Of a stretch of 48,141 bases of DNA, positions 1 through 48,141 are shown piece after piece; position 1 is the stretch's first letter; each line of letters starts with the position of its first letter. The stretch is taken from IMG/VR virus record IMGVR_UViG_3300030333_007116, positions 1-48,141 of that record; one strand, written 5' to 3'. The position numbers and the translations under genes were made by a program. This DNA comes from a virus. A model generated the notes under the pieces. It made no database searches and had not been told where the DNA came from. It saw only the letters and a list, made by a program, of their open reading frames with translations.

Positions 1-96
1 CATGGGTATTTCAGGCCCAGGCGTCGATGCGATCATTGAGGAATGCACCACAGGGCTGAAAGCACACCTTGCGGCTGATGGTGCGCACACCGTCGT
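1..96. repeat. Exact terminal repeat, copy 1 (partner 45321-45416)
   Basis: These 96 bases are identical to 45321-45416. The first mismatch is at 97 (t here, a at 45417), after which 17 more bases match and the copies then diverge to related but clearly different sequence. This is the junction at which the phage genome appears to close on itself. Confidence 0.95.
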
Positions 97-124
97 TGAT
101 GCTGTGCCGCCAGCTCAAGAGTAA
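1..124 (+). CDS. C-terminal fragment of small virion or lysis-associated protein (copy B)
   Basis: The window opens inside this gene, so only the last 40 residues are present. They match the C-terminus of the complete 83-residue protein at 45193-45444: the first 96 bases are identical and the ending changes from PPAAE to PPAQE. Function is unknown. In the complete copy it sits between the tail fibre and the lysis genes and precedes the same coiled-coil protein, so it is either a minor structural protein or part of the lysis cassette. The ATG at position 2 is an internal Met, not a proven start. Confidence 0.7.
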   Translation, partial: MGISGPGVDAIIEECTTGLKAHLAADGAHTVVDAVPPAQE

Positions 125-129
125 TTGGG

Positions 130-435
130 ATGGACCCGGAGTCAGTCGCGTCAGGAGGGATCGTCGCCGCGATCGTCGTTGGAATGCGCCTCGCTGAAAG
201 ATTCTCTGATCGCAAATCTGCGAACGGGTCCAGTTCCAAAATCGATACGCGCATTGCGCTCGCAGAGCAGCAGCTTGTTGAGCTCAAAGAGGATATCGCC
301 AAGTTGACCGAAAAGGTCGTAGAGAACCTCAAGCTCACCTACGAGCTGCGCGAGAAACAGATTGTGCAAGACGCAGTGAACAAGGCGCTGAAGCACAAAG
401 GCAACGGACAACATGACCCTGGAGGCTCAGGATGA
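130..435 (+). CDS. Small membrane-anchored coiled-coil protein of the lysis cassette (copy B)
   Basis: 101 residues. A short hydrophobic N-terminal segment (about residues 9-21, GGIVAAIVVGM) is followed by a charged coiled-coil-like stretch (about 40-85) rich in Glu, Lys and Leu and a polar tail ending GGSG. It is a clear relative of the 99-residue protein at 45450-45749, with most of the core identical. It lies just before the holin-like gene and overlaps it by 4 bases (ATGA). The topology of N-terminal anchor plus coiled coil recalls inner-membrane spanins, but no lipoprotein partner is seen, so this is only a possibility. It could instead be a minor virion protein. Confidence 0.65.
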   Translation: MDPESVASGGIVAAIVVGMRLAERFSDRKSANGSSSKIDTRIALAEQQLVELKEDIAKLTEKVVENLKLTYELREKQIVQDAVNKALKHKGNGQHDPGGSG

Positions 436-674
436 TTGGGAAGACTAAGGGATGGCGAAGCAGCGAGTTTTTGGTCACCTGTGGTGCAATGATTATCGCG
501 TGTCTGGGGGTTTTGTTCGAAGGGCAAAACAACACGATTGTGACCGCCCTCTGCGGCCTCGCTGGAATCGTTGCCCCTGCAGCATATGCAACCAGTCGAG
601 CGATGGTGAAGAAAGCCTTGGTGCAGTCTGAAGCACTGACTGAGGTTGCAAAAAAAAAGCCCTCGGAGGACTGA
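432..674 (+). CDS. Holin-like two-segment membrane protein (copy B)
   Basis: 80 residues. Two hydrophobic segments (about 13-30 and 36-54) are separated by a short polar loop with GQNN. The N-terminus is basic (GKTKGWR) and the C-terminal tail charged (VAKKKPSED). Size, topology and position before an M15 endolysin fit a class II holin that permeabilises the inner membrane. The start overlaps the upstream stop (ATGA) behind a GGAGG. The 83-residue protein at 45751-46002 is the divergent copy. A run of nine A (650-658) lies near the 3' end. Holin function is inferred from topology and context only. Confidence 0.7.
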   Translation: MIGKTKGWRSSEFLVTCGAMIIACLGVLFEGQNNTIVTALCGLAGIVAPAAYATSRAMVKKALVQSEALTEVAKKKPSED

Positions 675-883
675 ACGTTGGCGAGTTATTCAAGCAAGGC
701 CGTCACGGCGCTGACCTCGGCCTACGTATTAGTGGCGTTGGCCGCGATGAAGTTCGCGCCGCGTTGGTTGGAGAAGTTGCTGGTCAAATCACTGACGGTC
801 TCGAGGGCTTCGCGAACGCCTCGGTACAACTCGATAAACAACTAAAATGGGCCGCGAACGCGGGCCTACGTTGGAGGTGGTGA
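671..883 (+). CDS. Overlapping conserved frame in lysis cassette, possible CTG start (copy B)
   Basis: In the -1 frame relative to the holin-like gene, an open frame runs from a CTG that contains the holin stop (CTGA) to TGA at 881-883, giving 71 residues. The product has a soluble, repeat-like character (GLRISGVGRDEVRA, ending AGLRWRW). The counterpart at 45999-46226 keeps the frame, the CTGA junction and the ending AGLRWRF, with about 54% identity over 59 residues by eye, higher than in the TTG/ATG frame it overlaps. No ATG, GTG or TTG start exists in this frame, so initiation would need CTG or ribosomal slippage. Whether it is translated is unproven. Confidence 0.4.
   Translation: MNVGELFKQGRHGADLGLRISGVGRDEVRAALVGEVAGQITDGLEGFANASVQLDKQLKWAANAGLRWRW
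678..845 (+). CDS. Small single-pass membrane protein, TTG start (copy B)
   Basis: 55 residues starting at TTG, with GGAGGA at 665-670, 7 bases upstream. One hydrophobic segment (about residues 10-27: TALTSAYVLVALAAM) is followed by KFAP and a basic, Ser-rich tail. The counterpart at 46003-46188 uses ATG at the equivalent place and shares YV, AL, AM and FAP and the tail RY.S, about 45% identity over 42 aligned residues by eye. It overlaps almost entirely with a second open frame (671-883). It may be an accessory lysis protein such as an antiholin or spanin component; no lipobox is visible. Confidence 0.55.
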   Translation: MASYSSKAVTALTSAYVLVALAAMKFAPRWLEKLLVKSLTVSRASRTPRYNSINN

Positions 884-951
884 TGCCCAAAGGTAAGGGA
901 ACATACGGGAGCAAGCGTGGACGTCCGCCAAAGAAGGGCAAGAAGAAGTGA
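883..951 (+). CDS. Lys/Arg-rich mini-protein, 22 residues (copy B)
   Basis: ATG at 883 overlaps the stop of the preceding frame (TGATG), with GGAGG at 873-877. The product MPKGKGTYGSKRGRPPKKGKK-type peptide is 22 residues and almost half Lys/Arg. It ends at 951, overlapping the GTG start of the M15 peptidase gene (GTGA). A longer Lys-rich version (36 residues, also starting MPKG) occupies the same place at 46226-46336, which supports it as a real gene. Function is unknown. A nucleic-acid-binding or membrane-active peptide is plausible from charge alone. Confidence 0.6.
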   Translation: MPKGKGTYGSKRGRPPKKGKKK

Positions 952-1391
952 GCTTTCCCGCTAAATGGTTTAAGGCCGATGAATTCGCCTGTACCTGTGG
1001 CTGTGGCGGCAAGAAAGTTCACCCAAAGCTTGTTGAGCTCCTTGATGCGATCCGAGAAGAGGTTGGCCAGCCGCTGACTGTGACCAGTAGCTTTAGATGC
1101 GAGGCAAGAAACACTGCTGTAGGCGGTGTGAAATCGTCTCAGCACCTGCCGCACAAAGGTCAGGCCTATGCGGCTGACATCACGTATTCCAAGCGTCACC
1201 TACGAGACAATCGTGAGAACCTCTTTAGGCTCTTTTGGCACGCCGAGAGGGCTGCTGAAAGGATGGGCCTTGTCGTAGGTCTTGGTTTGTATGAACCGCG
1301 CTCAGGAGGCTTCCTGCACGTTGACGTGAGGGGTGAGCGCAAGATGAAGGCTGCGAGGTGGCTTAAATGGTCCTGGCCGCGAATGCCCTAG
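948..1391 (+). CDS. M15-family peptidase endolysin (copy B)
   Basis: 147 residues, GTG start. It matches the VanY/peptidase M15_3 fold used as phage endolysin to cut peptide cross-links of peptidoglycan. Likely zinc ligands are His66 in SSQH, Asp77 in YAADI and His124 in LHVD, in the family order HxxxxxxxAAD...HxD. The N-terminus begins with a WFKADEFACTCG-type segment typical of this group. It is the last plus-strand gene of lysis cassette B; its stop overlaps by 4 bases the stop of the convergent minus-strand gene at 1388. The relative at 46333-46794 keeps the same three ligands. Confidence 0.88.
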   Translation: MSFPAKWFKADEFACTCGCGGKKVHPKLVELLDAIREEVGQPLTVTSSFRCEARNTAVGGVKSSQHLPHKGQAYAADITYSKRHLRDNRENLFRLFWHAERAAERMGLVVGLGLYEPRSGGFLHVDVRGERKMKAARWLKWSWPRMP

Positions 1392-1732
1392 CACTGTACT
1401 TTGTGTGCGACGGGCACTTCATATGTGCTCTCGTCTAAAGACTTAGCCCGATGAACAGCCTTTAGCCTTAGCTCCTCGAACACTTTTTTCTTTTCAGGGA
1501 TCTGCTCAGACAGCCAGGACGCCCTGATGAACGTCTCATCGTCAATAAGGTAGGCGGCACCGTCAAAAGCGGCCATTTTTAAAAAAGGGTCAGGCAGTTC
1601 TGCGTCTGCTGCGTAGAACAGGACGTCTTCGTCGTCCAATACAAAAATTGTTCTTTCAAATTCTCGCGGTGCTGGGTGACCCGTATCTGTAAAAACAGAC
1701 TCGTGAATTACCACTGGGATTAATTCTTTCAT
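1388..1732 (-). CDS. Hypothetical protein, 114 residues
   Basis: Not recognised. Taken from ATG at 1732, which overlaps the upstream stop (ATGA); the frame is open further upstream but that part lies inside the preceding gene. The product begins MKELIPVVIHESVF and is mildly acidic with alternating hydrophobic strands (FERTIFVLDDEDVLFYAA). It is the last gene of the long minus-strand early operon and runs tail-to-tail into the endolysin gene. No counterpart exists in the variant end at 46.8-47.5 kb. Confidence 0.6.
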   Translation of the reverse strand: MKELIPVVIHESVFTDTGHPAPREFERTIFVLDDEDVLFYAADAELPDPFLKMAAFDGAAYLIDDETFIRASWLSEQIPEKKKVFEELRLKAVHRAKSLDESTYEVPVAHKVQC

Positions 1733-1977
1733 TTCCGCTCTCGCATAAGCAGGCTGGCAAATTGCTTCAAGCCCTCTGTTGTCATCCACTTCTTGGCGCT
1801 TAGGTGCGCGACCCAATTTAATACCTTCTCTCGCGTGTCTGTGTCCTTAAGCGGGATGGCGTATTCGTAGCCGCCAAGCGTCGTTTGGATGTAGTTCTCG
1901 TCGATCTCCCAAACCTTCGGGTGTTGGACTGAAGGGACATCGCTTAATTTGACGAGCCTAAGTGGTTGTAGATCCAT
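1729..1977 (-). CDS. Hypothetical protein, 82 residues
   Basis: Not recognised. Small protein (MDLQPLRLVKLSDVP...) with a strand-rich N-terminal half and a helical, basic C-terminus. Its start lies within the end of the VRR-NUC gene (20-base overlap) and its stop overlaps the next start, so it is translationally coupled in the operon. No membrane segment or metal motif is visible. Absent from the variant end of the window. Confidence 0.6.
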   Translation of the reverse strand: MDLQPLRLVKLSDVPSVQHPKVWEIDENYIQTTLGGYEYAIPLKDTDTREKVLNWVAHLSAKKWMTTEGLKQFASLLMRERK

Positions 1978-2476
1978 TGCTGTCTTCTTTCTTAATGCTG
2001 TTAGGTTTAGGCGTGCCGATTTTAAAACCGCAATCCCTTAGAAATTGCTCTGCCTCATCAGCCCCGTAACAAATCTTGACTAGCCAACCGAAGCTCTCGA
2101 GTTTAGCGAGCCAGACTTTTTGCTCCATCGACACACGACTGCGCGCAGGCTTGGCGCGTTTAAGTTCAATAGCTACACCGCAAGCGCCGGGAAACCTTGG
2201 CGGCCGGTCGTGGATGATTAAATCAGGATACCCCTTGTGGCTGCCCATTTTTTTCATCCTCGCTCCGCTCACCGCTGACCTGGCTGCAATCCCCATTGGG
2301 CAGTGCTGAAAGGTCAATTTGGCTTTTCGCATAGCGATGACTAACCTTGACTGTTCTTGTTCTTCGGTCGGATGTGCGGACTTGACGCGTTTCTTCCGCT
2401 TCGCAGAGACGACTCGCTGGTTTTTTCGGAAGAACCGTTGTGTCGCGTTCAAGACTCTGTCGGAGTGACTCGCCAT
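1958..2476 (-). CDS. VRR-NUC domain nuclease (copy B)
   Basis: 172 residues. The C-terminal about 120 residues carry the VRR-NUC (PD-(D/E)XK-type) signature: EEQEQSRLV near the start, KGYPDLII, AIELKR, then a Q..WL..L...GW segment and CYGADEA. The N-terminus is strongly basic. Stand-alone VRR-NUC proteins are common in phages and probably act as structure-specific or Holliday-junction nucleases in replication or packaging. A divergent homologue lies at 47540-48028 in the same relation to the endolysin. It is preceded on its strand by a 160-base non-coding gap that could hold its promoter. Confidence 0.85.
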   Translation of the reverse strand: MASHSDRVLNATQRFFRKNQRVVSAKRKKRVKSAHPTEEQEQSRLVIAMRKAKLTFQHCPMGIAARSAVSGARMKKMGSHKGYPDLIIHDRPPRFPGACGVAIELKRAKPARSRVSMEQKVWLAKLESFGWLVKICYGADEAEQFLRDCGFKIGTPKPNSIKKEDSNGSTTT

Positions 2477-2636: not shown

Positions 2637-3281
2637 TTACAGGTCGCGATTAAAAAGGTAGCCTTGGTCTAGTCCCCTTTGCATGCGTTTAAACATCTTG
2701 AGGTATCGACTAGCACCAGAACCATCGAAACTATCTGCACCCCATGAGCGGCAAAGGTCGAGCCGTCGTTGACTGTTAACTCGTCCGACGTGAAACCAGC
2801 AGCCACGTTCTTGAGCGAGCTCGCCCCATACAGCACCAGTCTTGAGCTTCCAGTCGGTGGTGCCTCCTAAAAAGATGCCGACTTTTGGACCTACGAGAGG
2901 ATACAGGTCGCCAGGCAGCATCCCGTCTTGCGCGGGAATGAGTACAGCATTTGAGTAAAACGGCAGAACATCTAGCCAAAAACAACTCACACGCAAGCTG
3001 CGCATACCGCATCCAACAAGATCTGGTGCAACAATCCAGTCTGGTTTGTGCTCTTGCTTTTCAGCCCACTTTAGCGCGTTAACAAAACGACGGGTGTTGA
3101 ACCGTTCGCCTCTGGTGTAGCAACCCCACGCACCGTTATCGAGCGCATAGTGTTGGAACCCCTCAGTGCGTAGGTCAGCGCCCGCTGTAACGAGCAGACG
3201 CCAACCTGCATTGCGCATCGCATCTAAATTAACCTTTGTTCCGGTTCTAGATGCGTATGGGTAAATGTCATAGTCAATCAA
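2637..3281 (-). CDS. DpdA-like 7-deazaguanine DNA transglycosylase (phage TGT paralogue)
   Basis: 214 residues, TTG start overlapping the QueD stop (TTGA). The pattern is that of a compact TGT/DpdA TIM-barrel enzyme: LDNGAW (Asp48), DWIVAPDLV (Asp87), IPAQDG (Gln118), FLGGT (Gly139-140), FHVGR and GADSFDGSGASR, in which Asp186 sits where the nucleophilic Asp of tRNA-guanine transglycosylases lies. Such phage enzymes exchange guanine in DNA for a 7-deazaguanine base. Its direct coupling to a QueD gene supports a DNA-modification role against host restriction. It is much shorter than bacterial TGT (about 375 residues) and lacks an obvious zinc cluster. Family assignment is from motif memory. 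Confidence 0.65.
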   Translation of the reverse strand: MIDYDIYPYASRTGTKVNLDAMRNAGWRLLVTAGADLRTEGFQHYALDNGAWGCYTRGERFNTRRFVNALKWAEKQEHKPDWIVAPDLVGCGMRSLRVSCFWLDVLPFYSNAVLIPAQDGMLPGDLYPLVGPKVGIFLGGTTDWKLKTGAVWGELAQERGCWFHVGRVNSQRRLDLCRSWGADSFDGSGASRYLKMFKRMQRGLDQGYLFNRDL

Positions 3282-3655
3282 CTGATCACCGTCGCCTCAG
3301 AGTCATCACTTTCGCAGACTGTGATTTGGATCCATGTGAGCTCAAAATCTGCAAGAGCTCTCGAAAACCGTTCATGGATCCATTGAGCTAAGATTTCAGT
3401 CGTTGGGTTTTCTAACCCTGCGACTGCGTTGAGACCACCTGCTTTATGATCAAGCATGGAATGTAGTGGTACCCAGATAGAATCTAAAACAGCCGTATCG
3501 ATGATAAAGCCCGTCTTCTCATCTACCGGCCCACATACCTCAACCCAAACGACGTAGTTGTGACCATGCTCATTTGCACACTTGTGATTAGCAGGGACTC
3601 CCGGCAACCAGTGCATTGCACTGAACCGTTTGAGCCTGCGACGAAGAGTCTTCAT
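3278..3655 (-). CDS. queD: 6-carboxy-tetrahydropterin synthase (QueD)
   Basis: 125 residues, the usual length for QueD/PTPS. Zinc ligands are visible as His15 (FSAMH) and His30/His32 (EHGHNY), with the catalytic Cys26 in CANEHGH. A GFIIDT strand, LDHKAG and NPTTEI (the PT.E substrate-binding motif) follow, and an acidic ES..SEA sits at the end. QueD converts dihydroneopterin triphosphate to carboxy-tetrahydropterin, the second step to preQ0, after GTP cyclohydrolase. The gene is coupled to the DpdA-like gene and to the upstream gene by ATGA. FolE, QueE and QueC are not seen in the window, so the host would have to supply them. Confidence 0.9.
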   Translation of the reverse strand: MKTLRRRLKRFSAMHWLPGVPANHKCANEHGHNYVVWVEVCGPVDEKTGFIIDTAVLDSIWVPLHSMLDHKAGGLNAVAGLENPTTEILAQWIHERFSRALADFELTWIQITVCESDDSEATVIS

Positions 3656-11901: not shown

Positions 11902-12201
11902 TTATGCGCTTTTTGTCTCGAAACGCTCACGTACTTTTTCTTTTTCTGCAAGCGTTTTTTTGATGCGTTTCGCGATCACACTGCGAGCAGCAAGTTGAGG
12001 CAAAGGAGTTTTCTCTTCTGCCTGCGCAAAGAAACGGTTGACGGTCGAGCGCAGCCAATAGCAGCGTTGCTTTTCGTCGTGGTTGAAGGGTTCAGGAAAT
12101 CTTCCTGCTTTCACCCATCGCTCCAGAGTCTTCCGATGGACTCCTAATAAGACGGAGAGTTGGGTTTTGGATATTAAAAGTGTCTCGGTGTTCCCCGACA
12201 T
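11902..12201 (-). CDS. AlpA-like / excisionase HTH regulator
   Basis: 99 residues. An N-terminal MerR-type HTH (LLISKTQLSVLLGVHRKTLE then RWVKAGRFPEPF) and a RYW-like strand (RCYWLRSTVNRFF) match AlpA/excisionase proteins, which direct integrase toward excision or activate it. The C-terminus is basic and helical. It starts inside the 3' end of the integrase gene behind GGAGG and is overlapped by it for 110 bases, an arrangement seen in integrase-excisionase pairs. Confidence 0.72.
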   Translation of the reverse strand: MSGNTETLLISKTQLSVLLGVHRKTLERWVKAGRFPEPFNHDEKQRCYWLRSTVNRFFAQAEEKTPLPQLAARSVIAKRIKKTLAEKEKVRERFETKSA

Positions 12202-13519
12202 TAAGTGCCTCCACGATGCAGTCTGTGGCCCCCCACATGCTGCTCTCGTCTTGGTTAGTAATGGTATTGATTGTCTTCATTAGTATGTTCGCCCAGTCCT
12301 GCATCATCGCAAACCGAGCTTCTAGATATTCATGTTGGTTATAATTCTTCTGCGTTGTTCCTTTCGGTAAGTGGCCAAGGCATCGCTCAATGAGCTTGTC
12401 GTCATATGAGAGCGCGCCCCAGCAGGTTGCTACGGTTCGTCGGATGTCGTGTGCCGTGTTCACAAACCCGCCCTGATCCTTGAGCGAGCGGTTGATGCAC
12501 ATCTGACCCCGGATGTGCTCGAAGATATAGTCATCACGGCTGGCTGGTTTGGTGGCCGTGTGCTGCTCTTGCAAGATCTGTTGGGCTTGCGTCGAGAGAA
12601 GGATGTGATGCGGTCGGCCCTTTTTCTGTCGTTCGGGTGACACCACCAACGACGGTGCACGGCCAGAAAGACTGTTCTGCATCTCACACCAGCGGGCCTG
12701 GATGATTTCCATCTTCCGCGCTCCGGTCAGCATCAGTAGACGCGCAGCTCGCTGTAGCTCGTAGGCCTTGGCTTCGCTCGTGTAGCAAAACTGCTCGTCG
12801 AAGGGCAGGAAGCGCCACAGGCGGCGAAACTCGCTGGCAGAAAACTTCGATGTTCGCGGCTTCTGATCGAGGTGCACGATGAAGTCTGGGAACGACAGGT
12901 TCTCATCAATGCGGTGCACACGGCGCGCTGCGTAGAAGGCCTTGCGCAGCAGCGAGAGCGCCTTCTGGATTGGCGTCAGCTTCTTGCCCGCGTTTGTGAG
13001 CTTTTCGTACCAGAAAATCAGGTCGCGGTTCGTTATCTCTGCGACGTCCCATTTGCCGAAATACGGTTCAAGGTAATTGTTAACCGAGTACCAGGCATTG
13101 CGGAGCGTGCCGGGTCGCATCTTCTTCTCGCCGTTCACGCACAGTGCGGTCGTGTTTGGGTCGCGAGTCTCGAGGTACCACTCCAGCATCTGCTTTACGT
13201 TGAATGTCACGTTGAGATTGCGACGGTTCACAATCTCGCCGGAGATGGTGTCTGTTCTGGCAATGGTCGCGCAGCGTTGACGTGCCTGCTCTGGTGTGAG
13301 ACTGGCTGATGTTCCCAACTTGGTGCGTGGGCGCTTGTTGCCAATCTTACGACGGTAGAAGTAGGTCTTGCGCTCAGGCTTCTTGCGATTCTTCATCGTC
13401 GGCGCACAGTCGAGCTCAAGGCCCGGTGTGCGCTCATCACGGTAGGTGACCGGCTTGCTGCCTTTTTCGGGCAGGGGTAGCGCCTTGACCGCATCGACGG
13501 TGAGAAGCAGCTTACTCAT
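12092..13519 (-). CDS. int: P4-type tyrosine integrase (first recombinase)
   Basis: 475 residues. N-terminal arm-binding DUF4102-like part (LLTVDAVKALPLPEKG...), SAM-like core-binding domain (about 105-200), catalytic domain 230-410 with Arg268 (LTGARKMEI), His357-x-x-Arg360 (AHDIRRT), His383 (LGHLP) and Tyr393 or Tyr398 (NYNQHEY). It integrates the phage into the host chromosome. About 60 residues follow the catalytic Tyr, and this tail is the part overlapping the alpA gene. Coupled to the upstream 160-residue gene. No convincing att core was identified beside it. Confidence 0.9.
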   Translation of the reverse strand: MSKLLLTVDAVKALPLPEKGSKPVTYRDERTPGLELDCAPTMKNRKKPERKTYFYRRKIGNKRPRTKLGTSASLTPEQARQRCATIARTDTISGEIVNRRNLNVTFNVKQMLEWYLETRDPNTTALCVNGEKKMRPGTLRNAWYSVNNYLEPYFGKWDVAEITNRDLIFWYEKLTNAGKKLTPIQKALSLLRKAFYAARRVHRIDENLSFPDFIVHLDQKPRTSKFSASEFRRLWRFLPFDEQFCYTSEAKAYELQRAARLLMLTGARKMEIIQARWCEMQNSLSGRAPSLVVSPERQKKGRPHHILLSTQAQQILQEQHTATKPASRDDYIFEHIRGQMCINRSLKDQGGFVNTAHDIRRTVATCWGALSYDDKLIERCLGHLPKGTTQKNYNQHEYLEARFAMMQDWANILMKTINTITNQDESSMWGATDCIVEALNVGEHRDTFNIQNPTLRLIRSPSEDSGAMGESRKIS

Positions 13520-15731: not shown

Positions 15732-15887
15732 TCACTCGAAATCCTTTCGGGTGAATTGGTGTCGGCAATCTTGGTTAATGTCGGCAGCAATATTCGCAAC
15801 CATAGCCGCTAGGCTGTTACCGACTAACGGAACAACCGATACTACTGCAGCAAAAACCAATAGGTTAAACGTCAAGAAATCTCTCAT
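15732..15887 (-). CDS. Small membrane protein, 51 residues
   Basis: ATG at 15887 overlaps the stop of the recombinase gene (ATGA). The product starts MRDFLTFN and has a hydrophobic run of about 28 residues (LLVFAAVVSVVPLVG, then NSLAAMVANIAA) followed by a short charged tail (RKDFE). Too short for automatic ORF lists but supported by coupling and topology. Function unknown; such peptides downstream of a recombinase may be toxins or exclusion proteins, with no direct evidence here. Confidence 0.5.
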   Translation of the reverse strand: MRDFLTFNLLVFAAVVSVVPLVGNSLAAMVANIAADINQDCRHQFTRKDFE

Positions 15888-16798
15888 TGGTCATTATCCC
15901 CCATAGACATTGGATGGTTTTGGAGCAGCTCGCTCTGGTCATAATACCGTTTCATTGCTTCCAGTGATTTATGACCAGTCACCGCTTGTGTGATTGCCAT
16001 ATGTACGCCGCGCTTGGCGCAATCGGTGATAAAACCGGCGCGTATGCTATGGGGTGAATATTGGCTAGGGTCGATACCGGCCGATTGTAGTGTCTTGCTA
16101 AAAACAGAATCAAAGCCAGATCGGCTCAAACGCCTATCTACCAACCGATCGGCGCGTGATACGGGACGCCATAAGGGGCCAGTATCACCGACTAGATCCA
16201 AGTAGTTCTTGAGGGATTGATACGCGTCTAAAGCAAAATCCTTTAGAACCAATTTTAGGCGAGAATCAATACTACCTTTTTCTACTACTTGTAGCGTAAA
16301 ACCATCCGGTATTGATACGATATGGTTGACGTCTAAACCGAGTAACTCTTTTTTGCGGCTAGCAGTAACCCAAGCGGTAGTAAGCAATGCGCGATCTCTA
16401 ATCCCTCTGTGAGTAGATAGATCGAGCGCGCCTATCATTGCTTGTGCTAGTTCAGGGGTTAGCGCCTTTAACCTTTTTTTAGGTCGCGTTGCGTGTTCCC
16501 GCTTGAGTGATTGAATCAGGTTTTCTAACCGCTCCGAGCGATAGCCCGCTTGCACTAGCGCCGAGTAGGCTTGATTGATTGTGGCATAGGCTAGGCCTTG
16601 ATTGTGCATCTCAGTTAGATACGCAATGGCAGACCGTGAGCAACTCGAGACGCCTCGAGTTTGACACCAATCATCAAAGGAAGCCAAAACCCGCTGGTAT
16701 GCGTCAACCGTCCTAGGCGATTGGATCCCCTGTTCAATTTGCTTAGCTTGTGCGTCTAGCGCCGCTAGCGGATCAAGCTTGATAACTTTAGCCGTCAT
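15884..16798 (-). CDS. Second tyrosine recombinase, XerC/D-like
   Basis: 304 residues, the length of Xer-type recombinases. An N-terminal SAM-like domain (about 25-100; SPRTVDAYQRVLASFDDWC) precedes the catalytic domain with Arg148 (TASRKKELL), His250-x-x-Arg253 (HSIRAGF), His276 (TGHKSLEAM) and Tyr285/286 (KRYYDQ). It is unrelated in layout to the P4-type integrase at 12092-13519. A second recombinase inside a compositionally distinct block suggests that the block is or was a separate mobile element, or that this enzyme resolves multimers. Overlaps the upstream gene by ATGA. Confidence 0.9.
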   Translation of the reverse strand: MTAKVIKLDPLAALDAQAKQIEQGIQSPRTVDAYQRVLASFDDWCQTRGVSSCSRSAIAYLTEMHNQGLAYATINQAYSALVQAGYRSERLENLIQSLKREHATRPKKRLKALTPELAQAMIGALDLSTHRGIRDRALLTTAWVTASRKKELLGLDVNHIVSIPDGFTLQVVEKGSIDSRLKLVLKDFALDAYQSLKNYLDLVGDTGPLWRPVSRADRLVDRRLSRSGFDSVFSKTLQSAGIDPSQYSPHSIRAGFITDCAKRGVHMAITQAVTGHKSLEAMKRYYDQSELLQNHPMSMGDNDQ

Positions 16799-18348: not shown

Positions 18349-18677
18349 TGCTCATATCCTCCTAGGGTCCAAAAACCTTTTTCGGTCTTGTGTGATAGGT
18401 TCCAATACCAACCGATCGCCGTGTCTTGCGCCGCTGTGTAGCTAACTCCACCTTGATTAGGCTTAGCTTGCAACGCGTAGCGGCCGTTGGTCTCAATCAA
18501 TTCTCTAGCTTGTGCTAGCTTGCCAGCGGTTGCGGTAACTGTTGTTCCGTTCTCGCGTGCAACGATAAACGATTTCACCGATCCATCGTCATTACGTTTG
18601 ACGCTTTGGATTGTGAGTTTTTTCGTACCGCTTCGATTGGAGAACGTCATACCTTCCTTAATTGTGCGTGCCTTCAT
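18345..18677 (-). CDS. Hypothetical protein, 110 residues
   Basis: ATG at 18677 directly after the leader AAAGGAAGCACAAGCA; the open frame upstream of it is not used. The product is basic and strand-rich (MKARTIKEGMTFSNRSGTKK, VKSFIVARENGTTVTATAG), resembling a small beta-barrel, and ends GWYWNLSHKTEKGFWTLG. No family recognised. Confidence 0.6.
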   Translation of the reverse strand: MKARTIKEGMTFSNRSGTKKLTIQSVKRNDDGSVKSFIVARENGTTVTATAGKLAQARELIETNGRYALQAKPNQGGVSYTAAQDTAIGWYWNLSHKTEKGFWTLGGYEQ

Positions 18678-18709
18678 TGCTTGTGCTTCCTTTGCGTGGT
18701 GTTTGTTGG

Positions 18710-18958: not shown

Positions 18959-19398
18959 TGGTATTGGCTCCAATCGATTTCTAGAGATTCTTGATAGTGG
19001 ATTGTGATCCGCTTGGTTCCGTTTCCTGAACCTTTAGCGCCAACCGGCCGGCCGTGTTTTGCTATCTCTTTTGAGATTGCGCGCCGTCGTCTATCTAGGC
19101 TTGCTAGGTGTTCTTCATTGGTGCTGGATTCCTCGAGTTTAGGCAGGGGCCAAAGCGTAGCGCCGTTGAATTTAAGCAACCGCTGATGGGCTGGTAGTTT
19201 CATTGCGGCGCGAGATGCTACCGACACCTTGATCGAATGAGCGCCGGCGTGTGACAGGATTTCTAGGACTGCTAGCAGGCCTTTTGCGTAGTCCGTGTTG
19301 ATTGGTGATTTACCGCCACCCCTAGCATGTAGCGTCACCTTCCCAGGTTCCGTGGTGCTGATAGTCGCGTCGATTGTGTTTCCGTCTATGGTCTTCAT
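18955..19398 (-). CDS. Hypothetical protein, 147 residues
   Basis: ATG at 19398 behind the exact leader AAAGGAAGCACAAGCA. N-terminal 70 residues are strand-rich (TIDATISTTEPGKVTLHA), the middle is basic and helical (SLDRRRRAISKEIAKHG) and the end has ITIHYQESLEIDW. It could be a DNA-binding protein by charge, but no family is recognised. Confidence 0.6.
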   Translation of the reverse strand: MKTIDGNTIDATISTTEPGKVTLHARGGGKSPINTDYAKGLLAVLEILSHAGAHSIKVSVASRAAMKLPAHQRLLKFNGATLWPLPKLEESSTNEEHLASLDRRRRAISKEIAKHGRPVGAKGSGNGTKRITIHYQESLEIDWSQYQ

Positions 19399-19412
19399 TG
19401 CTTGTGCTTCCT

Positions 19413-19586
19413 TTAGAGTTTGAATGAACGTGCAAATTGCTGGGGCTTGAGCGCGAGATAGTGATCGGCTTTGCTAGCCATTAACCAATTGCCATTGTTC
19501 TCTGCAGCGGCCTTGATTTCCAAAAGCCGCTGAATACTCAGCGCGAGCCATTCCTGATGTATTTCGTCGTTCGTTGTCGTTGCCAT
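19413..19586 (-). CDS. Hypothetical protein, 57 residues
   Basis: ATG at 19586 behind AAAGGAAGCACAAGCA, identical to two neighbouring genes. Product MATTTNDEIHQEWLALSIQR and onward is helical with a basic, Phe-containing end (ARSFKL). Its stop lies inside the next gene's leader. Unknown. Confidence 0.6.
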   Translation of the reverse strand: MATTTNDEIHQEWLALSIQRLLEIKAAAENNGNWLMASKADHYLALKPQQFARSFKL

Positions 19587-40721: not shown

Positions 40722-43700
40722 TGCCAGGCTATTCTACACCAGTAAGCAGCGGTCTTTCCGGCACTACGGTGCTCACTGACAACACCGACCCAGCAAGCCT
40801 TATCGAAATAGAATTGCCGGACGGTAAAGACCTACTCGAATTTGACACGAGCGATAATGCCGTCAAGCTCACCATGCTTGGTGGTTTTACGCACTCGACC
40901 AACGAATCGTCTGGCCTCGTTGGGATTCGCGAAACTGCACCGAAAGCGCCGCTCCATATTGTCGGCACGGGTGGTTCAACGGGAATGTCTGTTGATCCGA
41001 CCGTCAATCACTCTGCAACGGTTTTCGTCGAGAACAGCAATAACAACTCAAAAGACCGTTGTCTGATGATTTTGAATGGCGACGGGGGTAGCGGGTCTGC
41101 TATCGATTTTTACCACACGGACCAGCGTCGATTGGGGTTGGCCGGATTCGGATCAGCGGCAAGCATTTTTACAGACAATGGCGTGCCGCTTCAAATTTCT
41201 GCCGTCAGCGGCCAATACATGAACTTCACAACAGGTGGGGTTGAACGCCTAAGAATTCACAATGACGGCAAGCTGACAACCGGGGCGGAAGACACCGGCT
41301 TGTGCGCGGCTTCTGGCGGTGTTCATATTAGGACAGGCACAGGGTCTACGCTGTCATCTGCCCACGCGTCTGCTGATGATCTCGTCGTTGAGGGCGCTAC
41401 GCACTGCGGGATGACTTTCATCACTGGCGGGACCACGAACAACACGTACATACAATTTGCAGATAATGATTCGAACGGCGCTGGCGGCATTTACTACGGG
41501 CACGGCAATAACCGACTTGAACTAAACGCTGGCGGCACTTGGATCGCGACCTTTACCAACACCGGGCAGGTAAACGGCGCAGAGATGACCGCTGGATATC
41601 TTTTTCACGCGCAAGACGGTGAGATTGGAATTCAGGCAAACAGCGCAGACGCTGTGGCGCAAAGTCTTGTTTTTGCAAAGTCTCGGCATGCGACAAACGG
41701 CAGCCACACGATTGTTGCTGACGATGACGTCCTCGGTGAGATTGAGTTCAAAGGCTCTGACGGCAATAGCTGGGCGCTAGCGTCACGCATCTATTCGCGT
41801 GTTGATGGCACACCTGGCGATGGAGACATGCCCGGAGCCATCGTTTTCGCAACGACCGCTGACGGTGCAGAAGCCACGACAGACCGGATGACGATCAATG
41901 CAGCAGGACAAGTGCTGATTGGCTCACCCAGCACTGCTCGCACCCTGGCTGTCGCAGGTGAGTTTCGAGTCGAAGCTGACGGCGTAAACGACTTTTTTCA
42001 AGTTACCAATATGAGCGGCGCAGGCTCGGCAGGCATCAACGGCATCAGTCAGGGTGACATTAATTTTAAACTGAAAAGCTCCAACGCATATTTCGGAGTG
42101 CTTAACGACAGCGGTACTCTTTTTTCCGTCAATCAAAACGGGAAAATTTCAAGTGGTGGTGAGGCAGGCACAACAGCTCTTTGTGACGCCGGAGGCCTTC
42201 ACCTTCTTGGCTCTGCTGCCACGTCAAACAGCGGTGTCAATGCTGGCTCGCGTTTGCTTGTGCTTGAGGACAACGGCTCTGACGGCGCAGGTATGACTAT
42301 TATTTGCGACGATGCGAATCAGGGCAAAATTGATTTTGCTGATGACACTGCGATTGATGGTTGGGTACGCTACCATCACAGCGGTGTACGCGCCTTGAGA
42401 CTGGGTGCTGGTGGTTCAGAGCAGGTCCGCGTTTACAGCAGCGGTTTGATTGTTAACGGTGGAATCGAGCCAGCTCACCGAGTCCACGTTCAAGACGGCG
42501 ACCTCGGGATTGTCACCAACAGCGCCGATGCAGTTGGCAAAAGCCTCATCTTCACCAAGTCGCGAAACGCCACCGATGGCTCTGCAACAGTCGTTCAGGA
42601 TGACGACGTACTTGGAAACATCGAATTCCATGGAGCTGAAGACGGAGACTCTTGGGCGGCAGGCGCGAAGATTTTTGCGCGAGTCAACGGCACCCCTGGC
42701 GACGGGGACATGCCGACAGAATTAGTTTTTGCAACGAGTGCAGACGGCAGCGAGACCCCATCCGAGCGGCTCGCTATTTTATCGACGGGCGTTGCCAAAT
42801 TTGCAGGTGATGTCGAGGTTGAAAAATCTGCGCCCAAGCTGACGATGGACAACTCCGCTGCTGGTGACAACTACGGCGATCGCTCCAGCACGATTCAGTG
42901 GGAAGGCGTTGCGACTCGCGATAGCGGCACCGCCACAACGCTGGGTTCCGTGCGGTTTCAGCACCTTGGATCGGGCACAGGGAACCGTGCTGAGTTCGTT
43001 GTTGCGGTCAACAACGCAGGCGATTCTGGGACGACTGACACGCTCAATGATCGACTGAGGATTCTTGGCGACAGTGGCACAATGAAACTTAGCGGAGTTT
43101 TCCAGACAGGGGACGGAAACGCTAGTTCACCAAGCCACGGGTTTACTTCCTCAACCAACACCGGAATGTTTCACGATGGCTCCAACGGACTAGCTTTTTC
43201 GGCAGCCGGTACGGAGCGTTTTCGGTGCGCCGCAAATGGAACTCTGAGCACGGGCAACGAAACCAGCCCGCTCGGGGGGGAGGCTGGCTCGCTACACATT
43301 CGCACAGCGGACTCCGGTGGCAATGTTGAGTCGGTTGCTGATGATCTGATCATTGAGAGGGCTGGCGGGCCTGGAATGGTTCTGCTGCAGAACTCAGGCG
43401 ACAACACGAGCAGCACAATTGCCTTTCGACGAGGCACTTCAAACACTTTTCTTGTTCAATCATCATATGTGGATAGCTCGGACATACAGTACCGAGTGCG
43501 CGAAATGACGGGCAATGCGGATGCGACAATTCGGTTTATCCCAGTTGGTGCAACGGTTGCGGCTGGTCAAGACGTGCCTGTTTTAACGCTCGGCGGTGGA
43601 ACAAAATCCGCTGCGCTGGTTAGCGGCAACGCTTCGCGCGCACTTAGCAACACGGGCTCCAGCAATAACCACGGATCATCACCGCGTGTCATTGACTGCA

Positions 43701-44953
43701 CCGCGCATGGTTTAAAAGTCGGAGAAGCCGTCGTTTTGCTTAGTGGCAACAGCGGGAACACGAACAAAGAGACCTTTACGATTACCGCTGAGAGCACAAA
43801 TCAGTTCACTGTTGACTCAGACCCGACTCATGAAACGTCGAACAAGACTGTCAAGGCTGACCCTGAGAAGACCCTACAAGTCATCAACGTTGACGGCAAA
43901 GAACTGTTTTGCGTCGGACGTTCCACAAATCTGATTTGGCACGACGGTCAGGTTGCGAGCATCGGTGGCACGCAGACGGTAGCTCTCGTCACAGAGCATT
44001 ACGGCAACGACATTCCCGGCTCCAAAAACACGCTAATCGGTGCGCGGGCGGCTAAAGGCTCAAACTCCGGGTCGATGACCGTCATTGGTTGCGAGGCTGG
44101 TGAAGGCGGTGCTGGCACGGAGGCCGTGATTGTCGGGTATTACGCTGGCAATGCTGGGCCTGGAAATCAAACAACTCTCGTCGGATCAAGGGCTGGATCT
44201 TCACTTCAAAGCGGGGCGCACTACAACGTATGCCTTGGACATCAAGCTGGCAATGCGCTCACCACTGGCGACGACAACACGATGCTCGGCGAGAACTGCG
44301 ACGGAGCTGCGACAGCAAGCAATCAGATTGCAATCGGTCACGACGCAGTCAGCACAATGGCAAACGAAACTGTGATTGGCGATGCCATGATGGCTACGCT
44401 TCGGCCAATGTCACAAGGTCAATTTTCCATTGGTCGTGCAGGCTTTGAGGTCAGCGGAATGCTAGGCTACGGTGGTGGCGTTTTGATGGGCCGCGCAGCA
44501 GCAATAAGCAGCATTAACCAGGACCAAAAGATTTTGGCGCAGGTTTTCGCGAACAGTCAAACCCAGCTAGTGATTCCTGCAAATAGCTATGTAACTCGTA
44601 TGGGCATCACTTCTACCTCAAATGCTGACAGTAACGCTTACAGTGTCACCCTAAACACTGGCACCGTATCAGGTGAGACAGCTCTTGGCGCATTGACAAA
44701 CAGCGTAGAACGTATTGGGGCCGGCGTCGCAAATAGCCGAACGTCAGCGAGTACCGGGAGTGCTGCGGATCTTGCTGTGGCAGCAACGGGCAGTCACACA
44801 AAAGTTGTTGGCATTACGACTGAGGGTTTTTGGACCGGCGCAAATGATCTTTTTGTTTACGTAATGACGGCAGGCACTGGTAACGCAAACACAGCAAGTG
44901 GCCTCAACTTTAAGTTCGGCGTTTTTGTCGAATACGTAGGAATGGGAACATGA
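40721..44953 (+). CDS. Tail fibre / receptor-binding protein, 1410 residues
   Basis: Long, beta-helical, Gly/Asn/Thr-rich protein with many repeats of G....DGKL.TG...GLHIRT type. Residues about 294-400 and 584-693 are duplicated blocks, each holding VLG.IEF, DGTPGDGDMP or NGTPGDGDMP and VFAT. Near residue 1100 a YadA-head-like repeat (NTLIGARAAKG, TVIGCEAGEG, TLVGSRAG) follows, and the end looks like a receptor domain. No S74 chaperone motif was seen. It is the last large structural gene and probably sets host range. Confidence 0.8.
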   Translation: MPGYSTPVSSGLSGTTVLTDNTDPASLIEIELPDGKDLLEFDTSDNAVKLTMLGGFTHSTNESSGLVGIRETAPKAPLHIVGTGGSTGMSVDPTVNHSATVFVENSNNNSKDRCLMILNGDGGSGSAIDFYHTDQRRLGLAGFGSAASIFTDNGVPLQISAVSGQYMNFTTGGVERLRIHNDGKLTTGAEDTGLCAASGGVHIRTGTGSTLSSAHASADDLVVEGATHCGMTFITGGTTNNTYIQFADNDSNGAGGIYYGHGNNRLELNAGGTWIATFTNTGQVNGAEMTAGYLFHAQDGEIGIQANSADAVAQSLVFAKSRHATNGSHTIVADDDVLGEIEFKGSDGNSWALASRIYSRVDGTPGDGDMPGAIVFATTADGAEATTDRMTINAAGQVLIGSPSTARTLAVAGEFRVEADGVNDFFQVTNMSGAGSAGINGISQGDINFKLKSSNAYFGVLNDSGTLFSVNQNGKISSGGEAGTTALCDAGGLHLLGSAATSNSGVNAGSRLLVLEDNGSDGAGMTIICDDANQGKIDFADDTAIDGWVRYHHSGVRALRLGAGGSEQVRVYSSGLIVNGGIEPAHRVHVQDGDLGIVTNSADAVGKSLIFTKSRNATDGSATVVQDDDVLGNIEFHGAEDGDSWAAGAKIFARVNGTPGDGDMPTELVFATSADGSETPSERLAILSTGVAKFAGDVEVEKSAPKLTMDNSAAGDNYGDRSSTIQWEGVATRDSGTATTLGSVRFQHLGSGTGNRAEFVVAVNNAGDSGTTDTLNDRLRILGDSGTMKLSGVFQTGDGNASSPSHGFTSSTNTGMFHDGSNGLAFSAAGTERFRCAANGTLSTGNETSPLGGEAGSLHIRTADSGGNVESVADDLIIERAGGPGMVLLQNSGDNTSSTIAFRRGTSNTFLVQSSYVDSSDIQYRVREMTGNADATIRFIPVGATVAAGQDVPVLTLGGGTKSAALVSGNASRALSNTGSSNNHGSSPRVIDCTAHGLKVGEAVVLLSGNSGNTNKETFTITAESTNQFTVDSDPTHETSNKTVKADPEKTLQVINVDGKELFCVGRSTNLIWHDGQVASIGGTQTVALVTEHYGNDIPGSKNTLIGARAAKGSNSGSMTVIGCEAGEGGAGTEAVIVGYYAGNAGPGNQTTLVGSRAGSSLQSGAHYNVCLGHQAGNALTTGDDNTMLGENCDGAATASNQIAIGHDAVSTMANETVIGDAMMATLRPMSQGQFSIGRAGFEVSGMLGYGGGVLMGRAAAISSINQDQKILAQVFANSQTQLVIPANSYVTRMGITSTSNADSNAYSVTLNTGTVSGETALGALTNSVERIGAGVANSRTSASTGSAADLAVAATGSHTKVVGITTEGFWTGANDLFVYVMTAGTGNANTASGLNFKFGVFVEYVGMGT
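41604..42800 (+). repeat. Two duplicated blocks within the tail fibre gene
   Basis: Protein-level duplication: block 1 about 41604-41920 (starts HAQDGEIG, contains DGTPGDGDMP), block 2 about 42473-42800 (starts HVQDGDLG, contains NGTPGDGDMP). They share order and many residues through about 105 residues. Smaller repeats of a G...TG...GLHI type also occur three times in the fibre. Confidence 0.75.
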
Positions 44954-45192: not shown

Positions 45193-45444
45193 ATGGCTGA
45201 GAAAACGTTAAGCCGTATTGAAATTGTTATTGTGAAAGACGTAGCAACGTCGGAAGTAAGTGCTCAATGCTCGGGTGTGTACAACGTTGCAGAGCTCAAC
45301 AACTCGCGACTCGGCGAAAGCATGGGTATTTCAGGCCCAGGCGTCGATGCGATCATTGAGGAATGCACCACAGGGCTGAAAGCACACCTTGCGGCTGATG
45401 GTGCGCACACCGTCGTAGATGCTGTGCCGCCAGCGGCAGAGTAA
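45193..45444 (+). CDS. Small protein, complete copy A, 83 residues
   Basis: Begins MAEKTLSRIEIVIVKDVAT and holds the segment GISGPGVDAIIEECTTG, which is identical in the partial copy at the window start. Tandem paralogue of the preceding 76-residue protein. Its 3' part contains the 96-base exact repeat shared with positions 1-96. GGAG precedes the ATG. Function unknown. Confidence 0.65.
   Translation: MAEKTLSRIEIVIVKDVATSEVSAQCSGVYNVAELNNSRLGESMGISGPGVDAIIEECTTGLKAHLAADGAHTVVDAVPPAAE
45321..45416. repeat. Exact terminal repeat, copy 2
   Basis: Identical to positions 1-96, offset 45320. Implies a unit length of about 45.32 kb if the genome is circular. Beyond 45416 the sequence is a divergent version of the region after 96. 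Confidence 0.95.
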
Positions 45445-45449
45445 CTGGA

Positions 45450-45749
45450 ATGGACCCCGATAGTGCAGTTGGAGGTGGAATCGTAGCCGCAATTGTCGTC
45501 GGCATGCGAATCGCTGAGCGGTTTAACGACCGTAAATCTGCCAACGGGTCCACATCCAAAATCGACACGAGAATCGCGTTAGCTGAGCAGCAGCTTACTG
45601 AGCTTAAAGACGACATTGCCAAGCTGACAGACAAAGTTGTTGAGAACTTGAAGTTGACGTACGAGCTGCGTGAAAAGCAGGTTATTCAAGAGGCTGTAAA
45701 AGACGCCTTGATTAAAAAAGGCAACAGCCAACACGACCCAGGAGGTTAA
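45450..45749 (+). CDS. Membrane-anchored coiled-coil protein (copy A)
   Basis: 99 residues, the counterpart of 130-435: hydrophobic GGIVAAIVVGM near the N-terminus, then IDTRIALAEQQL coiled coil and a HDPGG end. The two copies differ mainly by conservative changes. It precedes the holin-like gene by 2 bases. Spanin-like or structural role not resolved. Confidence 0.65.
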   Translation: MDPDSAVGGGIVAAIVVGMRIAERFNDRKSANGSTSKIDTRIALAEQQLTELKDDIAKLTDKVVENLKLTYELREKQVIQEAVKDALIKKGNSQHDPGG

Positions 45750-45750
45750 G

Positions 45751-46002
45751 ATGCTGCAGGGACAAACCAAGGGCGTTAAGTCGTCTGAGTTTTTACTTTG
45801 CTGTGCTGCGCTAATCATGGGCGCAGTTGGCGCAGTCTGGTCTGATAACCAGCTCGTCCAAAGCCTATGTGGCTTAGTCGCTATGGTATCGCCAACCGCC
45901 TACGCTGCGTCTCGTGCTGCTGTCAAAAAAGCCTTGGTTTCCAGCCAAGGGCTCCAAGAGGTGGCGAAGATGGGAAAGCCATCGGGCTCCGAGGAGAGCT
46001 GA
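45751..46002 (+). CDS. Holin-like protein (copy A)
   Basis: 83 residues with two hydrophobic segments (SSEFLLCCAALIMGAVGAVW; LVQSLCGLVAMVSPTAYAAS) around a SDNQ loop. GGAGG lies before the ATG. Compared with copy B the loop and tail differ, and the nine-A run near the end is missing. Likely class II holin. Confidence 0.7.
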   Translation: MLQGQTKGVKSSEFLLCCAALIMGAVGAVWSDNQLVQSLCGLVAMVSPTAYAASRAAVKKALVSSQGLQEVAKMGKPSGSEES

Positions 46003-46226
46003 ATGCACAGGCGCAAAAGGCAGCGCTCGCTCTGGGACAAGACAATTTTATTGGCCACCTTGGGCTACGTGTTCGGGGCACTGGTGGCGATGAGGTTCGC
46101 GCCGAAGCCGTTGCAGAGATGGCTGGAAGACTCACTGGCAACCTCACCGGGTTCGCGCAGGGAGCGCTACAGCTCGACGAGCGTTTAAACTGGTCAGCTA
46201 CAGCTGGCCTTCGTTGGAGGTTTTGA
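45999..46226 (+). CDS. Overlapping conserved frame in lysis cassette (copy A)
   Basis: Counterpart of 671-883: 75 residues if begun at the CTG that overlaps the holin stop (CTGA). Ends GLRWRF, with HLGLRVRGTGGDEVRAEAV and GFAQGALQLDERLNWSA resembling copy B at every third residue or better. The frame is open further upstream, but without a good start codon near a ribosome site. Translation is not proven. Confidence 0.4.
   Translation: MNAQAQKAALALGQDNFIGHLGLRVRGTGGDEVRAEAVAEMAGRLTGNLTGFAQGALQLDERLNWSATAGLRWRF
46003..46188 (+). CDS. Small single-pass membrane protein (copy A)
   Basis: 61 residues, ATG directly after the holin stop with GAGGAG spaced about 8. Basic N-terminus (MHRRKRQR), a hydrophobic TILLATLGYVFGALVAM segment, then RFAPK and a Ser/Arg-rich tail. 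Homologous to the TTG-start protein at 678-845. Confidence 0.55.
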   Translation: MHRRKRQRSLWDKTILLATLGYVFGALVAMRFAPKPLQRWLEDSLATSPGSRRERYSSTSV

Positions 46227-46336
46227 TGCCAAAAGGAATGGGATACGGGCCGGGAGCAAAAGCTGCGGCGGCTAAAAAAAAGATGCCTAAGAAAGTTAAG
46301 CCAAAGAAAATAAAGCCAAAGAAAAAGTCAAAATGA
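46226..46336 (+). CDS. Lys-rich mini-protein, 36 residues (copy A)
   Basis: ATG at 46226 overlaps the previous stop (TGATG), with GGAGG upstream. Begins MPKGMGYGPG and continues with Ala and KKK/PKK repeats; about 16 Lys of 36. Ends over the start of the M15 gene (ATGA). Longer than the 22-residue copy B version, so repeat number may vary by slippage. Confidence 0.6.
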   Translation: MPKGMGYGPGAKAAAAKKKMPKKVKPKKIKPKKKSK

Positions 46337-46794
46337 ACAAGGGCTGGCCAGGCAAGTACTTCAGCACAAGCGAGTTTGCGTGCAACTGCAAACGCTGCAC
46401 GATGACCAAGGTGCGACCTGAGCTGGTCAAGATTTTAGATAAAGCGCGTGAGCATCTAGGCGTACCTCTGCGCATCAATAGTGGAGTTCGCTGCGACAAT
46501 CACAACCTGGTTGTAGGTGGCGTCTCAACGAGCTTGCACCTTGGCTACCCTCTCAAAGGCAAAGTAGCAGATCGCGTGGGCTACGCGGCAGATGTCACGT
46601 ACAGCAATGCAGCCTTGCGCAACCCGCTAAACATGTGCCGCCTTTACATGGCGCTGGAGAGCTTTGGCAGGCCGAACAGCCTTGGCTTAGGGTTGTACCC
46701 AAGTTTTGTTCACTGCGATGTGCGCGGCCTGCTAGGTCGCAAAGCAGCTCGCTGGGCTGATAAGAATTTCGGTTGGGTACGCCTTCATGATTAG
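46333..46794 (+). CDS. M15-family peptidase endolysin (copy A)
   Basis: 153 residues; His69 (SLH), Asp87 (YAAD) and His127-x-Asp129 (HCD) give the zinc site. N-terminus MNKGWPGKYFSTSEFACNC matches copy B. A 10-residue insertion (KGKVADRVG) precedes the Asp motif. Ends 8 bases into the next gene. Confidence 0.88.
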   Translation: MNKGWPGKYFSTSEFACNCKRCTMTKVRPELVKILDKAREHLGVPLRINSGVRCDNHNLVVGGVSTSLHLGYPLKGKVADRVGYAADVTYSNAALRNPLNMCRLYMALESFGRPNSLGLGLYPSFVHCDVRGLLGRKAARWADKNFGWVRLHD

Positions 46795-47371
46795 ACCCCA
46801 AGACGAGCTAAAAGAACGTGGCGTCATTGAAGTCGAGGGCGTGCGCTCTCTTGGCGTTATTCAAGGCCCGCTCGATGGCAAGGGCAACAGGCTGCAGAAC
46901 ATTGCCACGCCAACAGCCGCGAGCGATGCCGCAACTAAGGCATATGTTGATGGGCATTATGAATACTTAATTGCCAATTTGCATATAGAGAAAGCTGCTT
47001 GGGGCGCCGGCACGACGATGGATGTTCTGCCTCTTCCTGGCACACCTTCAACACAAGCAGACTGGGAAGCAGTCTCAGCCACTTGGATGTGTACAGACAA
47101 CCAACACACTTCGGGATCTGACCCAACTTTTGATGTTCGGCTCGGATATATTGATGCCAACACCATCACTCAGGTCTCCGTTATTATTGATGAGGAAGTG
47201 ATTACCGCTTCTAGTATTGGTGGGCAGTGCACGATTGACAGTGCAGCGGTGGCTTACCAGTCAGCTGGTCCCACTGTCCTTTATCTGCAGGTTGGCGATG
47301 TGGCTAACACGGAAATTAACAACGCAGGTAAGTTTTCTGTCTCGCTTCTTTTGCGGCGACCTATTAGCTAA
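46787..47371 (+). CDS. Short fibre-like structural protein at the variant end, 194 residues
   Basis: MIRPQDELKERGVIEVEGV then LDGKGNRLQNIATPTAASDA and ATKAYVDG, the typical linker of phage tail fibre proteins, followed by a beta-rich C-terminal domain ending SVSLLLRRPIS. It is placed after the endolysin in copy A only; the equivalent place in copy B has no such gene. It may be a receptor-binding or auxiliary fibre. The end is overlapped on the opposite strand by a small zinc-ribbon frame. Confidence 0.65.
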   Translation: MIRPQDELKERGVIEVEGVRSLGVIQGPLDGKGNRLQNIATPTAASDAATKAYVDGHYEYLIANLHIEKAAWGAGTTMDVLPLPGTPSTQADWEAVSATWMCTDNQHTSGSDPTFDVRLGYIDANTITQVSVIIDEEVITASSIGGQCTIDSAAVAYQSAGPTVLYLQVGDVANTEINNAGKFSVSLLLRRPIS

Positions 47372-47461
47372 CGGCTCACCCATTAAATTACCGCAACGCA
47401 GGCACTCCAGGCTACCACGGTAAATGTGATTGCACGCTATGCATGACCTCATTGGCTGCAT
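47261..47461 (-). CDS. Possible zinc-ribbon protein, antisense overlap with fibre gene
   Basis: Minus-strand frame beginning MQPMRSCIACNHIYRGSLEC and continuing LRCGNLMGEP: the spacing C-x2-C-x(10)-C-x2-C is a classic zinc ribbon and lies in the non-coding part downstream of the fibre stop. The last 36 codons run antisense into the fibre gene. No Shine-Dalgarno is obvious; ATG 47461 or 47452 could start it. The Cys pattern is what makes it worth listing. Confidence 0.4.
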   Translation of the reverse strand: MQPMRSCIACNHIYRGSLECLRCGNLMGEPLANRSPQKKRDRKLTCVVNFRVSHIANLQIKDSGTS

Positions 47462-47539
47462 GGCTAACGGCCCCAAACCAGATATGAAATGATAATAGAG
47501 GGGGGCTCCATTTTTATACCATTCATCACGCGCACGCTG

Positions 47540-48028
47540 TCACACGTCGTCGTTGCCCTGATCTGGCTTGGGGCTCGGCAGATAGCCTAGCATACGTAGC
47601 ACCTTAAATGCCTCATCTGCTCCATGGCACACGTACACTTTCCAACCGCAATCGCGCTCTAAAATCCGATGCCACTTTTTTTGATTGTCAGAAACTCGTC
47701 CGCCCTTGCGTCTCTTCATTTCGATAGCAGTGGGTACTTTAAATTTCGGCGATGGTTGCGGCAGCACCAAATCAGGCACGCCTGCAGAGAGGCCCTGTTT
47801 ACGAAGCTGTGCGCCATGGATCTTGCTGCGTGGGTTGTTCGGCACAGCAAAGACAGGCACACCTTCCGTGCGCAGCGCTCCAACAACACGGCTCTGCTCT
47901 TGTGCCTCTGTAGGCATCGAGCCCTTCTTGCGTTTTCTTTTGGGCTTCTGCGCCTGCAAAAAGCCAAGGGGAGTCCATAAGTCTGCCACTAGAATCACTC
48001 TCTCTGGCTTCCCCTTTAGCTTAGCCAT
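47540..48028 (-). CDS. VRR-NUC domain nuclease (copy A)
   Basis: 162 residues from ATG 48028 (MAKLKGKPERVIL). VRR-NUC features: PTEAQEQSRVV, GVPDLVLP, AIEMKRRKGG, then DNQKKWHRIL, GWKVYVCHGADEAF. It is the counterpart of 1958-2476, with similar charge (KRKRKKG) before the domain. Orientation convergent with the endolysin is the same in both ends. The start overlaps the partial upstream gene by 13 bases. Confidence 0.82.
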   Translation of the reverse strand: MAKLKGKPERVILVADLWTPLGFLQAQKPKRKRKKGSMPTEAQEQSRVVGALRTEGVPVFAVPNNPRSKIHGAQLRKQGLSAGVPDLVLPQPSPKFKVPTAIEMKRRKGGRVSDNQKKWHRILERDCGWKVYVCHGADEAFKVLRMLGYLPSPKPDQGNDDV

Positions 48029-48141
48029 GCGTTGGCCCAATCCTCACAGCCCTCACGCTGGCCTTGTTCAGTTAACTCAACACCGTGCGCTGTGCAGCGC
48101 CAACCGCCATCTTCCCCATCAAGAATTGGCTCGGCAAACTT
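48016..48141 (-). CDS. C-terminal fragment of unidentified protein at window end
   Basis: The frame is open from the window edge to TAA at 48016-48018 and gives about 41 residues, with FAEPILDGEDGGWRCTAHG and ELTEQGQREGCEDWANAWLS. It overlaps the VRR-NUC start. It is not the DpdA-like protein that precedes VRR-NUC in copy B, so the two strains differ here. Product unknown. Confidence 0.55.
   Translation of the reverse strand, partial: KFAEPILDGEDGGWRCTAHGVELTEQGQREGCEDWANAWLS

Follow-up and report, generated by a model that had tools for sequence, protein, structure and literature searches.

A viral contig that very probably joins one full turn of a circular phage genome to a short branch from a second phage type

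Sequence assemblers are known to fuse strains where these have k-mers in common (PMC11443906, PMC10563150). Kmers of 81-101 are given for SOAPdenovo in one JGI metagenome paper (PMC4149020); a connection between these values and the 96-base repeat described here was considered and dropped as evidence, as no assembler is linked to the sequence. The stretch of DNA analyzed, hereafter the window, is an entire virus record of 48,141 bases that carries a lysis/nuclease cassette at each of its ends. The cassette at the window start is designated type A and that at the window end type B (copy B and copy A, respectively, in the original prediction). The presence of both in one molecule is very probably a product of assembly, with the contig consisting of a 45,320-bp type A circle followed by 2.7 kb of a type B phage.

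The repeated segment and the closure of the circle

Positions 1-96 and 45321-45416 are 100% identical at a spacing of 45,320 bases. The identity ends at base 97, and beyond this segment the longest exact run between the copies in a global alignment is 17 bases, which bears out the exact match with an abrupt stop that had been described earlier. Searching with blastn lengthens the match to 425 bases at 81% identity, and the chance of a 96-base exact run given this background is approximately 2e-9. Nucleotide identity between the copies is 82% at positions 97-129, 73% in the coiled-coil gene, 55% in the holin-like gene, 51% in the M15 peptidase gene and 50% in the VRR-NUC gene. The encoded proteins are 82% (coiled coil), 55% (holin-like), 45% (Lys-rich peptide), 44% (M15) and 42% (VRR-NUC) identical. 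The order of genes is common to both copies, running from the boundary gene through the coiled coil, holin-like protein, Lys-rich peptide and M15 peptidase to a convergent VRR-NUC, and the expectation of a conserved order at only moderate identity after the repeat (42-82% at the amino acid level) agrees with these values. No exact match to the first 34 or the last 37 bases of the window was found in viral_contigs, a set that may lack very near records.

The second occurrence of the segment (45321-45416) lies inside an 83-amino-acid boundary gene on the plus strand (45193-45444), at which the two continuations fork; the first occurrence (1-96) is both the circle-closing overlap and the fork point. 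Joining position 45320 to base 1 completes the interrupted gene in frame, and over its last 40 residues the closure version and the end version differ at a single residue (97.5% identity). The 96-base overlap and the in-frame read-through at the closure together indicate that positions 1-45,320 are one full turn of the genome, and the last 2.7 kb alone are extra. Of the two options in the original prediction, that of an assembly crossing between strains at this segment is supported; the prediction missed the role of the 96 bases in closing the circle. The boundary gene is 35% identical to a gene at the same place in the relative G004, a homologue detected by tblastn, and the open reading frames of a second relative, G007, include a G004-like boundary gene at the same place. 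A pattern scan for relatives of the 83-amino-acid gene found none.

The type A phage is probably temperate, with a genome that is circular or circularly permuted. Two genes for tyrosine recombinases are present, at 12092-13519 (Pfam Phage_integrase) and 15884-16798 (PHROG integrase), and they suggest that the phage is temperate and has two enzymes of this kind. The window also contains a 22-base exact direct repeat (18672-18693 and 19393-19414), and no tRNAs were found in it.

The two cassettes and their relatives

Relatives were gathered from IMG/VR by terminase and cassette searches. Among the long relatives, G004 (42,572 bp) is the nearest to the window. Its two ends overlap by 77 identical bases, through which a reading frame stays open, and G004 can accordingly be taken as a closed genome, with a length of 42,495 bases. 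Its structural genes, single A-type cassette, VRR-NUC and early genes follow the circular order of the window. Two further relatives, G006 (IMGVR_UViG_3300030117_006813) and G007 (IMGVR_UViG_3300030389_004227), match the type B cassette. Compared with the window, G007 is 46% identical in the terminase, 45% in the portal protein and 25% in the DUF927 protein, the last value holding for G006 as well, and these low identities place G007 in a different lineage from the window. Close isolate phages were not found by megablast with positions 22000-46000, and terminase tblastn returned only matches below 60% identity (approximately 24% in the listed hits). Terminase alignment likewise revealed no related prophage in genome_contigs.

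On the plus strand, the type A cassette encodes a coiled-coil protein (130-435; 70% identical to G004), a holin-like small protein (432-674; 71% to G004) that is named from its position and appearance only and has no PHROG match, a small Lys-rich peptide (678-845; 63% to G004) and an M15 peptidase, the endolysin (948-1391; PF08291, phrog_894; 87% to G004 and 90% to G008). On the minus strand are a gene without a family that is found only in the start copy (1388-1816) and has no counterpart in the eight relatives compared, followed by the VRR-NUC nuclease (1958-2476; PF08774; 61% to G004). Two further minus-strand genes occur on the type A side only. One is a 214-amino-acid putative DpdA-like gene (2637-3281; 88% to G008), and it adjoins the other, which encodes a QueD/PTPS-family protein (3278-3655; PF01242, with TIGR03367 below its cut-off). 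The DpdA name proposed for the former is not upheld, as its sole match is phrog_15826, a family of unknown function, and searches of Pfam, NCBIfam and PDB gave no match. A possible role of the gene pair is DNA base modification.

The type B cassette (45450-48040) encodes proteins that are 77-95% identical to those of G006/G007. Its plus-strand genes are the coiled-coil protein (45450-45749; 86-88% to G007/G006), the holin-like small protein (45751-46002; 93-95% to G006/G007), the small Lys-rich peptide (46003-46188; 82-89%), the M15 peptidase (46333-46794; PF08291; 88% to G006/G007 and 46% to G004) and a fibre-like gene found only in the end copy (46787-47371; 77% to G006/G007), which has weak tail-fibre PHROG matches and no match in G004. 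A zinc-ribbon frame with CxxC pairs (within 47264-47539) and the VRR-NUC nuclease (47540-48040; PF08774; 83-86% to G006/G007 and 38% to G004) are on the minus strand. The five proteins of this copy that have a match in G004, namely the coiled coil, holin-like protein, Lys-rich peptide, M15 and VRR-NUC, are 38-60% identical to it. The earlier naming of M15 and VRR-NUC is confirmed in both copies by the two Pfam families, and the middles of the copies differ as described, with the minus-strand gene at 1388-1816, the 214-amino-acid gene and QueD/PTPS at the start and the fibre-like and zinc-ribbon frames at the end. After VRR-NUC, G006 and G007 continue into counterparts of the Cas4-type exonuclease and Sak4-like genes; the window's 214-amino-acid, QueD and Dam genes have no matches there.

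The module to which the type B cassette belongs has a border of its own. From the coiled-coil gene onward, G006 and G007 share 94.4% identity across 8,070 bp; upstream of that gene they have 19-32 matches per 100 bases, which amounts to no homology. This border falls at the same cassette start as the fork in the window, which indicates that the fork lies at a real module boundary. Between G004 and G007, the boundary gene is 73% identical at the nucleotide level and its flanks are 50-64% identical. A possible reading, somewhat less likely than not, is that the fork is a recombination joint at which distant lineages swap the whole lysis-plus-early module, the exchange point being the small gene ahead of the coiled coil and the event recent enough for 96 or more bases to have stayed identical.

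Explanations for two cassettes in one contig

An assembly crossing accounts for the two cassettes as follows. The contig would make one full 45,320-bp turn of the type A phage, at which point the assembler would return to a segment, 96 bases long or longer, that precedes the lysis cassettes of A and B alike, and would exit by the B branch rather than close the circle. Each real genome would hold one cassette, and a recent exchange of DNA between A and B at the boundary would explain the exact shared segment. The jump was presumably made by the assembler. Direct backing for the crossing comes from the closure overlap, the frame through this overlap, the single cassette in a closed relative and the affinity of the tail to type B.

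One form of the crossing has a probability that overlaps with that of the crossing as a whole and comes fairly near to an even chance. It holds that a recombinant phage with A structural genes and a B lysis/early module coexisted with the A phage and that the contig merges the two, so that a duplication within one molecule would still be unreal. A recombinant is favored by the G006/G007 module, which sits behind different upstream genes, by the boundary gene that G004 and G007 share at an identity above its surroundings, and by the Sak4-like annealing protein and Cas4-type exonuclease that the phage encodes. The contig alone, however, links the sequence upstream of 45321 to type B, and separate A and B phages with only this segment in common would give an identical contig. 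If the recombinant did exist, distant phage lineages exchange modules at a fixed border.

The original prediction had left the choice between an assembly crossing and a genuine divergent duplication, and the comparison with relatives favors the former. A single phage with two lysis/nuclease cassettes would agree with the deposited contig, which contains both with the genes open in each. Such a phage is very unlikely, however, since closed G004 has one cassette, the copies come from different lineages (the end copy being that of the other lineage), and the start copy begins in the middle of a gene exactly at the contig end. Furthermore, in a set of 20 related records, M15 (found in 6, with 14 lacking any M15 match) and VRR-NUC (found in 8) each occur at most once per record, a comparison that draws on fairly distant phages from separate records and is not proof of one cassette here. 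Least likely of all, and by a wide measure improbable, is a physical cointegrate, formed when the circular A phage entered a B-type prophage or genome by recombination at the segment common to both, an event that the identical segment and the phage recombination genes make possible but that requires B-type sequence upstream of base 1, beyond the reach of the contig, and a genome far exceeding the 42-45 kb of relatives.

With the assembly crossing as the preferred explanation, the record is best handled as two parts, a circle of 45,320 bp and a branch of 2.7 kb, for gene counts and genome size. As deposited, it overstates the length and suggests two lysis cassettes. Beyond indicating a place at which gene modules seem to be swapped among these phages, the finding would be ordinary.

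Comparison with known systems

Circular phage contigs with a terminal overlap of k-mer length resemble the window in that an exact short repeat closes a full turn. Besides the 77 bases of G004, overlaps of 98 bases occur in G010 and G011, at or within one base of the contig ends. The window differs from these in that its repeat recurs within the contig, at a distance of 2.7 kb from the end, as the contig runs past the closure. A second wrap-around with unlike ends is seen in G009 (IMGVR_UViG_3300025132_000081; 44,002 bp), where positions 1-329 and 43671-43999 each cover part of the Cas4-type exonuclease gene and overlap at 73% identity with no long exact run between them, and such ends are therefore not tied to the lysis locus. 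In G012, related short repeats of approximately 45-70 bases are present at both contig ends, with several copies at the right end.

The lysis-early module of G006/G007 has the same gene order as the end copy, together with the high protein identity given above. Unlike this module, the structural genes of G007 are 29-46% identical to those of the window where matched; in G006, no more than 830 bp precede the cassette. Inter-strain chimeric contigs (PMC11443906) are alike in that related genomes are crossed at a perfectly conserved segment. In contrast to the near-identical strains of those contigs, the two genomes that meet in the window seem to be distinct lineages, as reflected in the terminase identity to G007.
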